The notes under the pieces were generated by a model, which worked only from the letters and a program-made list of their open reading frames with translations, ran no database searches and had not been told where the DNA came from. A DNA stretch of 64,000 nucleotides, from the NCBI GenBank assembly GCA_009917405.1, contig QZED01000004.1, forward strand, positions 1 through 64,000, in the 5' to 3' direction. Below are positions 5,477 through 58,702 of the stretch, piece by piece. Origin of the DNA: a bacterium c-19. GTDB taxonomy: Bacteria; Bacillota_I; Bacilli_A; Erysipelotrichales; Erysipelotrichaceae. The position numbers and the translations under genes were made by a program. Numbering within the stretch: the first letter of the stretch is position 1; each line of letters begins with the position of its first letter.

Positions 5477-5483
5477 ATCGATT

Positions 5484-5715
5484 GTAAAGCGTTGATCGGG
5501 ACAAGTACGTGCGGAAAATCTTTTTATCAGGGATAGATGATCACAGACTGGAAGTCATCTTTAAAAAGCCCGGCGGAAATTCACCCGTAAGTGAGAGTAA
5601 TGATCTCCCGTACATGACGGTTATCCATGAACAGTAAATAAAGTGTGTCGTCAGACAAAGCAGGATGGTACCGCGCAGTTTTGCGTTCCTGCATCTGATG
5701 ACATTTTTCTTTATA
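5484..5715 (+). promoter_or_regulatory. T-box leader controlling pheST, Phe specifier TTC
   Basis: The T-box core GGATGGTACCGCG is at 5663-5675. An AGTA element lies near the 5' end at 5501-5504. A GGAA-A-TTC-AC context at 5575-5584 places the specifier codon TTC (Phe) at 5580-5582, as expected for a phenylalanyl-tRNA synthetase operon. A long terminator helix forms from about 5644 to 5704 (TGTCGTCAGA with TCTGATGACA, GCAGGA with TCCTGC), followed by TTTTT. Uncharged tRNA-Phe would stabilise the antiterminator and allow read-through. Confidence 0.92.
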
Positions 5716-47500: not shown

Positions 47501-48517
47501 TTACATATCTCTGCCGATAACCTGCGCAATTGCTTTTCCTTTACGGATAACTTCGGCGAAGCGCTCCGGCTTTAACGATTGAGCGCCGTCAGACCATGCA
47601 CATTCCGGATTGTTATGAACTTCAATGATTAAACCGTCGGCTCCTGCCGCAATCGCAGCCAAAGACATAGATTCAATCAGTTTCCAATCACCGGTTGCGT
47701 GGCTTGGATCGATGATGATCGGTAAATGTGTTTTTTCTTTGATGATCGGCACAACACTTAAATCTAATGTATTGCGTGTATATTTTTCAAAGGTACGAAT
47801 ACCACGTTCACAGAAAATGACATTTTGATTGCCTTCGGACATGATATATTCCGCTGCCATGATCCATTCCTCAATCGTATTTGCCAAGCCGCGTTTTAAC
47901 AATACCGGCTTATTCACTTTTCCGACTGCCTTAAGCAAGTCGAAATTCTGCATATTTCGCGCACCGATTTGAATCAGATCGACATATTCCACGAATTCGT
48001 CCAGCTTATCGGCACTCATCAATTCAGAGACGATCGGTAAACCAGTTTGCTTGCGTGCTTCCACCATAGCCAACACGCCTTCGGTTCCCATACCCTGAAA
48101 TGCATACGGGGAAGTTCTCGGCTTATAAGCACCGCCGCGCAGCATATCCGCTCCGGCATCTTTTACCGCTTCGGCAATTTCTAAGGTTTCATTCGCACCC
48201 TCGATCGAGCAGGGACCGCCGATCACGACGATTTTCTCGTTTCCGCCGATTTTAATGCCGGCGACATCAATTACACTGTCCTGTGGGTGAAATAAGCGGT
48301 TGGCTTTTTTATATGGTGCCGCAATTCGCGTAACTTCCTCAACAAACGGATTGGCACGAATCGTTTTATCATCCAAACCGGCAGTATCACCGACTAAGCC
48401 GAAAACATTGTAGTTATCACCGTGAATCAGAGTAACCTGTAATCCACGTTTTTCAAAGCCTTGAATCAGCTTATCGATTTCCTGTTGCGGTGCTTCTTTC
48501 TTTACTGTAATAATCAT
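47501..48517 (-). CDS. aroF: 3-deoxy-7-phosphoheptulonate (DAHP) synthase
   Basis: A 338-residue class I-beta DAHP synthase, the first enzyme of aromatic amino acid synthesis. It has a ferredoxin-like N-terminal regulatory domain (residues 1-70) followed by the TIM barrel (GPCSIEG, RGGAYKPRTSPYAFQG, IIDPSHATGDW). The domain layout and length match the Thermotoga-type enzyme that is feedback-inhibited by Phe and Tyr. AAGGAG precedes the ATG. It follows aroE-aroK by 34 bases, so both are under the same leader-peptide attenuator. Confidence 0.93.
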   Translation of the reverse strand: MIITVKKEAPQQEIDKLIQGFEKRGLQVTLIHGDNYNVFGLVGDTAGLDDKTIRANPFVEEVTRIAAPYKKANRLFHPQDSVIDVAGIKIGGNEKIVVIGGPCSIEGANETLEIAEAVKDAGADMLRGGAYKPRTSPYAFQGMGTEGVLAMVEARKQTGLPIVSELMSADKLDEFVEYVDLIQIGARNMQNFDLLKAVGKVNKPVLLKRGLANTIEEWIMAAEYIMSEGNQNVIFCERGIRTFEKYTRNTLDLSVVPIIKEKTHLPIIIDPSHATGDWKLIESMSLAAIAAGADGLIIEVHNNPECAWSDGAQSLKPERFAEVIRKGKAIAQVIGRDM

Positions 48518-48551: not shown

Positions 48552-49796
48552 TTATTTCTTATATGTAAACGCAGATATAATCTGTGTTACCGCCTGTTCA
48601 ATATCAGCATTATTTTCAATCTCAAAATCTGCATATTGTTCGTATAATGCTTTGCGCTCCTGCCATAAGGCTGCGATTGCTTCCTTGCTGGAGGATAGGG
48701 GACGATTGTCATCGACCAGCAGCTGTTCGATTGGACGCTTGATATAAAACAAGGTTCCGTTCATCGATAACAGCTCCGGATTGATCGGATTCTTAATGAC
48801 CCCGCCGCCGGTAGCGATAATTAAGCTCTGTTGTTTACTGATTTGTTTGACGACTTCGCTTTCCAGTCTGCGAAATTCAGCTTCGCCGCCTTCTGCCATA
48901 ATTGTTTTAATGGATTTCTGTTGCTGGTCGACCAGCATTTCATCTAAGTCAACAACCTCACGATTCATGCGCTTTGCTAATGCTTGCGCAATCGTGGTTT
49001 TTCCGCAAGAGGGCATTCCGATTAAAACGATATTGCGTTTTTCACTCATAAGCTGTGTAACTATGGTATCAATAACGGTATCTGCCAGCTTTGTCTGCTT
49101 AAAGAATTCAACGGCATATTTTGCCTGTGCCACAAGCATTTCCAAGCCGCCGGCACAGCGAATATTGCGTTTCTTTGCCTGCACGCAAAGTCTTGTTTGC
49201 AGCGGATTATAAATCAGATCGACTACTGCCTCACAATCAGGAAAGGCTGCTAAGTCCAGCGGCCTGTCTAAATGATTCGGGTACATGCCGCAGGGCGAGG
49301 TATTAACGATAATTTGGCAGTCATGATGCTTGATACATGCTTCCTCATAAGTAATCGTATCCGCTGTTTTCGTTCTGCGTATCGAGATTATCTCACGACA
49401 TCCTTCATCTTGCAGCACTGCCTTTACCGCCTGTGCCGCACCGCCGTCACCGCAGATCAACACCTTTTTATCCTTTACGTTGATTTGATGCTTTTTCAAC
49501 GTGTACCAGAAGCCATCATAATCTGTATTTGTACCGTACAGTTTACCGTCCTTTTTCAGAATCGTATTTACTGCCTGTATATTCTCAGCTTTTGTATCCA
49601 TGTGATCTAAATAGGGAATAACTGCCTGTTTATAAGGGATCGTTACATTAATTGCCGTAAATTCACGCTGTTCCATAAAGCTTTTAAATTCCTGATGATT
49701 CAGCGGCTTAAGTTCATAGCTGTAATCAGCCAACTGTTCATGGATGATTTTTGAAAAGCTGTGTCCGAGCTTTTCTCCGATAAGTCCGTATTCCAT
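48552..49796 (-). CDS. bifunctional shikimate dehydrogenase / shikimate kinase (AroE-AroK fusion)
   Basis: A 414-residue fusion. Residues 1-250 are shikimate dehydrogenase: GHSFSKIIHE, NVTIPYKQ with the catalytic Lys, GTNTDYDG and the NADP-site motif ICGDGGAAQAV. Residues about 255-410 are shikimate kinase: Walker A LIGMPSCGKTT, DLDEM and GGEAEFRRLE, with GGGVI. Both active sites look complete. It thus does steps 4 and 5 of the pathway in one chain. The ATG at 49796 has GGAGGCAGG upstream. Confidence 0.93.
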   Translation of the reverse strand: MEYGLIGEKLGHSFSKIIHEQLADYSYELKPLNHQEFKSFMEQREFTAINVTIPYKQAVIPYLDHMDTKAENIQAVNTILKKDGKLYGTNTDYDGFWYTLKKHQINVKDKKVLICGDGGAAQAVKAVLQDEGCREIISIRRTKTADTITYEEACIKHHDCQIIVNTSPCGMYPNHLDRPLDLAAFPDCEAVVDLIYNPLQTRLCVQAKKRNIRCAGGLEMLVAQAKYAVEFFKQTKLADTVIDTIVTQLMSEKRNIVLIGMPSCGKTTIAQALAKRMNREVVDLDEMLVDQQQKSIKTIMAEGGEAEFRRLESEVVKQISKQQSLIIATGGGVIKNPINPELLSMNGTLFYIKRPIEQLLVDDNRPLSSSKEAIAALWQERKALYEQYADFEIENNADIEQAVTQIISAFTYKK

Positions 49797-49817
49797 ATCC
49801 TGCCTCCTTCGATTTGA

Positions 49818-49850
49818 ATAAAAAAAGCACCAACGTTTTTCGTTCGATGC
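49818..49850 (-). terminator. attenuator terminator of the aro operon
   Basis: On the minus strand GCATC-G-AACG pairs with CGTT-GGTGC (one bulge, loop AAAAA), followed by seven T. It lies between the leader peptide and aroE-aroK, about 22 bases before the gene. It would stop transcription when aromatic amino acids are plentiful. Confidence 0.8.
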
Positions 49851-49856
49851 CTGTAT

Positions 49857-49910
49857 GCCCCATATGGTAAAAAACAACCAAATAACATGTTGATTGGCTT
49901 TTTACGGGGC
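49857..49910 (-). promoter_or_regulatory. leader hairpin preceding the attenuator
   Basis: GCCCC/GGGGC and, inside it, GTAAAAA/TTTTTAC plus CCAAAT/ATTGG pair across a central loop. One foot coincides with the leader stop codon, so a ribosome there would disturb it. It may be a pause or protector structure; the competing antiterminator could not be resolved by eye. Confidence 0.6.
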
Positions 49911-49954
49911 TATCTAAAGGTAAAGTAGTAAAAGAATGAATGATGCAGTTTCAT
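49910..49954 (-). CDS. aromatic-rich leader peptide of the aro operon
   Basis: A 14-codon open frame, MKLHHSFFYYFTFR, with an AGGAGTG ribosome site 7 bases before its ATG. Six of the eight codons from position 7 are Phe or Tyr (FFYYF-T-F). A promoter lies just upstream and a terminator just downstream. This is the classic layout of ribosome-mediated attenuation (as with the pheA leader in enterobacteria), in which a shortage of charged tRNA-Phe or tRNA-Tyr stalls the ribosome and lets transcription proceed. Confidence 0.8.
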   Translation of the reverse strand: MKLHHSFFYYFTFR

Positions 49955-49978
49955 TAATATCACTCCTGTTTTGCCATA

Positions 49979-50007
49979 ATCATACAGGAAATGAAAATGA
50001 ATTGCAA
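49979..50007 (-). promoter_or_regulatory. promoter of the aro leader
   Basis: On the minus strand TTGCAA and TATGAT are separated by 17 bases. The -10 box lies about 25 bases before the leader peptide ATG. Confidence 0.75.
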
Positions 50008-50285
50008 GTATTTTTTTATAAAATGAAACTAAATGTAACATAATGTAAAATGAAAGGGGTGGCTTTTTTTCGGTTTTCCTGTATAATAAGGATTAGCAAA
50101 ATGAATGTGCGGCATGAATGAAAATATCTAGGAAGTCATAAGAGTATTATTGTGATATAAAGCTTTGATCGGTATAATGCCGGGGAAGTATGAGTGATAG
50201 AAACTATCATAAATATTGTATCAACATAAAAAGTAAGCAACTGATTATTAAACATAAATTATAAAATAAAAAGATAGGAGTAATT

Positions 50286-51050
50286 ATGAGAAATCATATA
50301 GTAAATCGTTTGATAGATACATCTAAAGTAAATGTTTGTGTACCGTTATGCGGGTCAAATGTTGAGGAGCTCAAGCAGGAAATTACTTTACTGGAAACCG
50401 GCATTGATATGGTTGAGTGGCGTATGGATTGTTTCTGTGCAGAGTCAGCACAGGATTGGATACAAGCGCTGAAAAAGCTTCGTCCGTTAATGAAGGATTA
50501 TGTATTATTAGCTACATGGCGCAGTGAAAAGGAAGGCGGCAGACAGAATTGTGCCTTTTATGAGGAATTACTGAAAGCAGTAATTCAAAGCGGCTTGGTT
50601 GATATGATCGATATTGAACTGTTTCAACCGGAAAGCTGTGTAAAGGACTTAACGAGGTATGCTCATGAGCATCATGTGGCAGTGGTAATTTCCAATCACG
50701 CTATGACGAATACGCCTGATAATGAAGCGATGATGATTCGTTTACAAGCGATGCGCAGAATGGGCGCCGATATTGTAAAGCTTGCGGTTATGCCGAATAC
50801 GGTACAAGATGTATGGAGATTATTGGAAACAAGTACAAGCTTTCATGAACAGGTAAAGGATTGTTATCTTGTGACTATGGCAATGGGCGAAATGGGAGTC
50901 ATCAGTCGTATTTGTGCCGAAATGAGCGGATCGATCATCAGCTTTGCGGCGCTGAAGGAAGCAAGTGCGCCGGGGCAGTTGCCTTGGAAACAGCTTGATC
51001 AGTTGTTATATCAGTTCCATCAGGCTTATCAAGGTAAAAAAGCTGAATAA
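50286..51050 (+). CDS. aroD: type I 3-dehydroquinate dehydratase
   Basis: AroD, 254 residues, catalyses step 3 of the shikimate pathway by a Schiff-base mechanism. The N-terminal EWRMDCF (substrate Glu and Arg), TWRSEKEGG, and the Schiff-base Lys in GADIVKLAVMP are visible. ATAGGAG precedes the ATG. It diverges from the aroE-aroK operon; the 270-base gap holds both promoters. A TATAAT at about 50092 is a likely -10 box. Confidence 0.93.
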   Translation: MRNHIVNRLIDTSKVNVCVPLCGSNVEELKQEITLLETGIDMVEWRMDCFCAESAQDWIQALKKLRPLMKDYVLLATWRSEKEGGRQNCAFYEELLKAVIQSGLVDMIDIELFQPESCVKDLTRYAHEHHVAVVISNHAMTNTPDNEAMMIRLQAMRRMGADIVKLAVMPNTVQDVWRLLETSTSFHEQVKDCYLVTMAMGEMGVISRICAEMSGSIISFAALKEASAPGQLPWKQLDQLLYQFHQAYQGKKAE

Positions 51051-58484: not shown

Positions 58485-58702
58485 ATAAAGGCAGTGAATT
58501 AGAGTAGTACGTAAAAGCCTGTATCAAGAGAGCAGTTGGTCGGTGAAAAACTGTTATATGCTTTTAGGGAACTCACTAAGGAGCCGATAATGAAAAGTTA
58601 TACGTAGCCTTGCGTTAAAAGGTGAAGTGCATATATTTATATGAATATATGAAGCAAGGTGGTACCGCGTATATTACGTCCTCGCAGGGACGTTTTTTTA
58701 TG
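58485..58702 (+). promoter_or_regulatory. T-box leader controlling leuS, Leu specifier CTC
   Basis: The T-box core AGGTGGTACCGCG is at 58657-58669. An AGAGAGC AG-bulge element and GGTCGGTG distal-loop element are at about 58529-58546. The GGGAA-CTC-AC context places the specifier CTC (Leu) at 58572-58574. The terminator ACGTCC/GGGACGT with a T-run is at 58676-58699. This is the expected control for leucyl-tRNA synthetase. Confidence 0.93.

Follow-up and report, generated by a model that had tools for sequence, protein, structure and literature searches.

A putative Phe/Tyr leader-peptide attenuator ahead of aromatic biosynthesis operons in the Erysipelotrichaceae

The leader that precedes the fused aroE-aroK gene of an Erysipelotrichaceae bacterium is very probably a transcription attenuator through which the ribosome senses the supply of charged tRNA-Phe and tRNA-Tyr, a reading drawn from sequence comparison and computed folding. 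Seen in the sequence itself are a translated-looking frame with terminal Phe and Tyr codons, a hairpin at its stop codon and a terminator, which together form one conserved and repeated unit. The initial annotation had described this leader in front of aroE-aroK, where it is indeed present; it is not, however, a single case, in that the genome carries at least two such leaders and these belong to a family-wide regulon.

In the window, the whole 64,000-nt stretch of DNA that was analysed, the minus-strand sequence bears out each of the parts that had been proposed: promoter-like pair, Shine-Dalgarno sequence, Phe/Tyr frame, hairpin at the stop codon and a seven-T terminator before aroE-aroK. 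A promoter-like pair, TTGCAA-17-TATGAT (50007-49979), is followed by the Shine-Dalgarno sequence AGGAG (49967-49963) and the leader ORF MKLHHSFFYYFTFR with its UAG stop (49954-49910), of which codons 7-13 (FFYYFTF, 49916-49936) are the putative sensor codons. Hairpin 1 spans 54 nt (49910-49857) with a predicted energy of -20.8 kcal/mol, and its pairing begins at the G of the UAG stop; its outer stem covaries family-wide, and it encloses a conserved, pause-like inner CCA...UGG stem followed by a U-tract (49869-49897). After a gap of 5 nt comes the intrinsic terminator GGCAUC(G)AACG-AAAAA-CGUUGGUGCU and its T7 run (49820-49851, stem 49851-49826), then the Shine-Dalgarno sequence AAGGAGG (49803-49809) of aroEK, which encodes a fused shikimate dehydrogenase-shikimate kinase (48552-49796, start at 49796). 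The second gene of the operon encodes DAHP synthase, the first enzyme of the pathway (47501-48517), of the PRK08673/DAHP_synth_Bsub type. Taken singly, the promoter-like pair is not significant (score 9/12, with 3.6 such sites expected), and the fold of the leader is moderately better than that of shuffled sequences (z = -2.57; 3 of 200 shuffles equally good), so that conservation becomes the deciding evidence. The TTGC...TATnnT layout does recur 5' of other leaders.

Two features lie further upstream. An operator-like motif, TTACATTTAGTTTCAT / TTACATTTnnTTTCAT, sits 5' of the promoter (50038-50023, minus strand) and is also found before several other leaders, some others having a similar ATGTAACA..TTTTCA in that position, so that one form or the other stands 5' of many promoters of aro leaders; the TTACATTTnnTTTCAT-type motif may be the operator of some regulator. 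Divergent from the aroEK leader is aroD, for a type I 3-dehydroquinase (50286-51050, plus strand); TTGTGA-17-TATAAT at 50150-50178 resembles a promoter, and no attenuator was noticed before the gene.

The same layout was found in the same genus and family upstream of AroEK homologues that are only 48-62% identical, with the leader peptides MKLHHSFFYCFTFR, MKQSIRLNAYFTFR, MTIHSAIPFYFIFQ, MMKQTSSKFYFYFR, MKHSLIFVFPFTFR, MHTTTYETFYFYFR, MHVAVSFYFIFS, MHLATSSVFYFYFQ, MHMILNSSYYFYF, MFLIPNHFYFYFQ, MNTSRHYYFYFK, MNNSRQYYYYFK and MKNLISVSYFMFTFK. Across 15 aligned leaders the invariant elements are CUUUnnAUAGC, which covers the final Phe codon together with the stop, and CAU in the terminator, and the hairpin stems vary with compensation. 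A first covariance model (R1) matched in 26 of 273 family genomes, and a second (R2), built from 38 aligned matches, in 40 of the 273 at E <= 0.01; in many other members of the family aroEK lies within a longer operon and has no leader immediately before it. Sampling 295 genomes of the order and 395 of the class yielded one match outside the family (G605), which proved to be an ordinary terminator after an unrelated gene, and a scan of contigs returned one near-identical genome as its sole match. In the 38-sequence alignment, which was fitted to the structure and in which three rows are weak extra matches, 15 of the 17 pairs have changed on both sides, and none of 500 shuffles reached this level; the signal drops sharply once the pairing partners are slid. 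A few members depart from the norm. In L038 the leader stop is UAA followed at once by UAG, the UAGCC of the hairpin being kept and the frame shortened by one codon; in L034 (G073:C1:750400-750510) a variant 18-residue leader meets its UGA stop within the 5' arm of hairpin 1, which shifts the usual register of stop and hairpin; and L214, an accepted match, has Tyr codons without a clean stop at the expected place.

Conservation of the Phe and Tyr codons and of the hairpins in relatives, which the initial annotation had put forward as a check, is thus strongly positive, and the codons carry a signal of their own. Among 34 complete leaders, F and Y make up 72% of the last six residues against 9% of those before them, and over the last eight codons they account for 59% in frame 0, the other two frames reaching 24% and 15%, with stops per frame of 0/1/23. 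The matches gained only with R2 again end in Y/F-rich tails (for example MLKFNLNHSYYYYYR, MLFNRYYYS and MSKPFSYYYFQ), and since that model is blind to codons they serve as an independent check. Conservation across many genera, covariation of hairpin and terminator and a Phe/Tyr run confined to frame 0 together establish that the layout is not due to chance.

The same codon data bear on what the frame is for. That it encodes a functional small peptide and not a sensor is scarcely credible: frame and length (10-18 residues) are conserved, but F/Y identity close to the stop is all that is preserved, F and Y interchange, and the frame is always coupled to a terminator and to aro genes. Nor is it at all probable that the frame is incidental to a riboswitch, a T-box or a protein-bound leader. 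The conserved inner CCA...UGG stem and U-tract could bind something other than a ribosome; against this stand the frame-specific enrichment of F and Y, the drift of N-terminal codons beside a preserved F/Y tail, the good Shine-Dalgarno sequence in most members and the lack of a match to any Rfam family. Rfam covariance models for amino-acid leaders, the T-box and others gave no match in the window leader and 20 related loci, the best scores (E 1.6-9.8 in the leader, 0.34 elsewhere) all being chance hits, and the leader holds only four scattered (G/U)AG triplets where a TRAP-type array has about 11. A few relatives look leaderless in place of having a Shine-Dalgarno sequence: in L154, L155, L157, L159-L162, L043, L048 and L010 about 6 nt separate the end of the -10 box from the leader ATG, so that these leader peptides are probably translated from leaderless mRNA.

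The leaders head four kinds of operon, namely aroEK(-DAHPS), aroB-aroC(-DAHPS-aroA-tyrA), aroB-aroC-aroEK and DAHP synthase alone, and all of the family matches inspected for context (E <= 1e-3) lie before aroEK, aroB-aroC or DAHP synthase. No such leader was found at pheA in the window's genome or its relatives. The second leader of the window's genome, MRNNAYFYYYE (G000:C31:5739-5850), precedes aroB-aroC-DAHPS-aroA-tyrA. Each of the two leader-controlled operons of this genome contains a DAHP synthase, both enzymes being of the same type: that of the C31 operon stands under the Tyr-rich leader, that of the window under the Phe-richer one. More generally, aroB-aroC leaders are richer in Tyr (27 Y to 9 F) than aroEK leaders (30 Y to 46 F; Fisher p = 5e-4), and in each of six genomes that have both types the aroB-aroC leader is the Tyr-richer one.

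The contrast that had been drawn with T-box control in this genome also holds and extends further. T-box matches precede pheS and leuS, and likewise tyrS and trpS, whereas the T-box model (RF00230), which matches 18 times genome-wide, finds nothing before either aro operon (G000:C130:49800-50007 and G000:C31:5700-5900). The leuS T-box is strong (window 58485-58686). That of pheS (window 5483-5693, plus strand) scores 67.8 bits against an Rfam gathering score of 93 and would therefore be missed by default annotation.

How might such a leader work? The leaders show what attenuators in general show, an ORF with a Shine-Dalgarno sequence and rich in codons for the products of the pathway, and an intrinsic terminator before the first gene. 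In the proposed mechanism, an ample supply of Phe and Tyr would let the ribosome reach the stop codon and mask the 5' side of hairpin 1, upon which the terminator would form and transcription would end; when charged tRNA-Phe or tRNA-Tyr is scarce, the ribosome would stall on the Phe/Tyr codons, hairpin 1 would stay folded and the polymerase would continue past the terminator to the aro genes. The inner hairpin and its U-tract probably pause the polymerase, letting the ribosome catch up. Computed folding, in which the downstream reach of the ribosome was set at its helicase edge, shows that ribosome position alters the RNA structure between the ORF and the terminator: in most members hairpin 1 keeps about 11 bp with a ribosome on the F/Y codons and 0-5 bp with a ribosome at the stop, and some aroB-aroC leaders fold differently when no ribosome is present. 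This switch geometry, in which the position of the ribosome opens or keeps a hairpin, is shared with trpL and pheL. Counting against the proposed attenuation mechanism, the terminator is predicted to form at equilibrium in almost all of the ribosome states.

It is on this point that the initial claim of classic leader-peptide attenuation stands only in part. The leader-peptide layout is conserved, but nested secondary-structure folding of these leaders turned up no antiterminator incompatible with the terminator, although that of Escherichia coli pheL was recovered by the same calculation. In that positive control, run on a pheL sequence that 5,395 of 5,426 E. coli genomes were confirmed to contain, the antiterminator formed when the ribosome stood on the Phe codons but not when it stood at the stop, and the missing antiterminator is therefore a property of the leader family under nested secondary structure. 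Since a mutually exclusive antiterminator was sought and not found, the leaders are not members of the pheL type.

A classic switch of the pheL/trpL type could still be built if hairpin 1, extended at its base by pairing of CUUU-n-RAU with AUY-nn-AAAG, acted as the antiterminator, such that a ribosome stalled on the first Phe/Tyr codons would let the extended hairpin take the foot of the terminator stem. RNAfold does show the base extension in truncated transcripts of several leaders, and throughout the aroEK set a C directly precedes the last Phe codon, while the residue that this C helps encode varies (T/Y/I). We nevertheless regard this switch as unlikely: the energy of the extension is no better than with shuffled flanks (mean z +0.35) or with flanks swapped between genomes (mean z -0.09), the extension is missing in the aroB-aroC leaders, and the terminator still wins at equilibrium. 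Two further pairings were considered and rejected. An apparent covariation between the codon before the stop and the terminator arm (GAU:GCAUC to AAU:GCAUU in L006) fails in L036, L038 and L041, and a pairing between the terminator and the region of the start codon, judged by eye, is inconsistent between leaders.

What a pheL-type switch does not explain is the constancy of the start and end of the hairpin and of the inner CCA...UGG stem with its U-tract. Although hairpin 1 varies in length from about 41 to 56 nt, in nearly all leaders it begins -2 to +2 nt from where the stop codon ends and leaves a gap of 3-9 nt to the terminator; for L034 and L160 its limits were assigned automatically and are incorrect or displaced. 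Of 33 sequence groups, 28 have the inner stem and U-tract, where 1.0 was expected, and the distance from the first base of the stop codon to the end of the U-tract is 32-47 nt, in most cases 37-40 nt. We read this element as a candidate polymerase pause site, such sites being known in leader regions, that of pheL among them (PMC9291695).

The fixed geometry invites a steric version of the mechanism, which we put forward tentatively as a possibility well short of an even chance. Hairpin 1 would act as a folding spacer: with the hairpin folded, a ribosome stalled on the C-terminal Phe/Tyr codons would sit at its foot, 3-9 nt from the terminator, and hinder the latter, and a ribosome at the stop would unzip the hairpin, lengthen the distance to 40-60 nt and let the terminator work. 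Consistent with this version are the fixed bounds of the hairpin and its opening by a ribosome at the stop but not by one on the F/Y codons, together with the repression of E. coli terminators placed less than about 20-27 nt from a ribosome (PMC4824070); known attenuators keep more than 20 bp between the two (PMC4824070). The arrangement suggests that a folded hairpin 1 may park the stalled ribosome against the terminator. The argument is one of geometry only, and the intervening helix would leave the terminator arm near the ribosome, not inside it. An antiterminator-free attenuator that combines a post-stop hairpin as collapsible spacer with a pause at the inner hairpin, at the point where a stop-codon ribosome would touch the polymerase, is a more speculative proposal that we consider improbable as a whole.

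Leader-peptide attenuation has long been known in Proteobacteria. The closest likeness there is to pheL-pheA of E. coli, with which the present leaders share a peptide of 14-15 residues whose Phe run extends up to the stop, a structure of about 50 nt just after the stop, an intrinsic terminator and a gene of aromatic synthesis. They differ in that the post-stop structure of pheL overlaps the 5' arm of the terminator as an antiterminator, whereas the present hairpin ends before it, and in having Phe plus Tyr codons, shikimate-pathway operons, another phylum and no Rfam match. Among previously described motifs, uORFC-13-1 was found in Acholeplasma and environmental sequences only, exclusively upstream of aroF and with at least one Phe codon (PMC8632094). 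Compared by description, both combine a predicted uORF that contains U-rich Phe codon(s) with a further stem and a terminator before a DAHP synthase gene, but the present leaders belong to another family, carry long Phe and Tyr runs and head four kinds of aro operon. In Firmicutes, the ilv-leu operon of Staphylococcus aureus has a Leu-rich leader-peptide attenuator (PMC5794164); this too is an attenuator of amino acid synthesis whose proposed antiterminator fold spares the terminator stem, though it uses Leu codons, other genes and another structure, with an upstream motif proposed to pair with the poly-U tail (PMC5794164). His leader peptides were described for hisZ and hisS* of bacilli (PMC2965389), which likewise have a leader peptide in place of a T-box but use His codons and precede other genes. 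No report of the present leader set was found in the literature searched, whose coverage excluded subscription journals. The principle is thus known, and the Gram-positive set as a whole and its unusual RNA layout seem undescribed.

For the biology of the family, the leaders point to a Gram-positive lineage that splits its sensing of aromatic amino acids, with T-boxes assigned to the tRNA synthetases and translation of Phe/Tyr codons to biosynthesis. Within the latter branch there would be a further division of labour, the Tyr-rich leaders standing before the operon whose last gene is tyrA, the Phe-richer ones before aroEK-DAHP synthase. Many gut genomes would gain a regulatory annotation, and the leaders, compact and well conserved, lend themselves to testing whether termination can be governed by a ribosome when no antiterminator competes.
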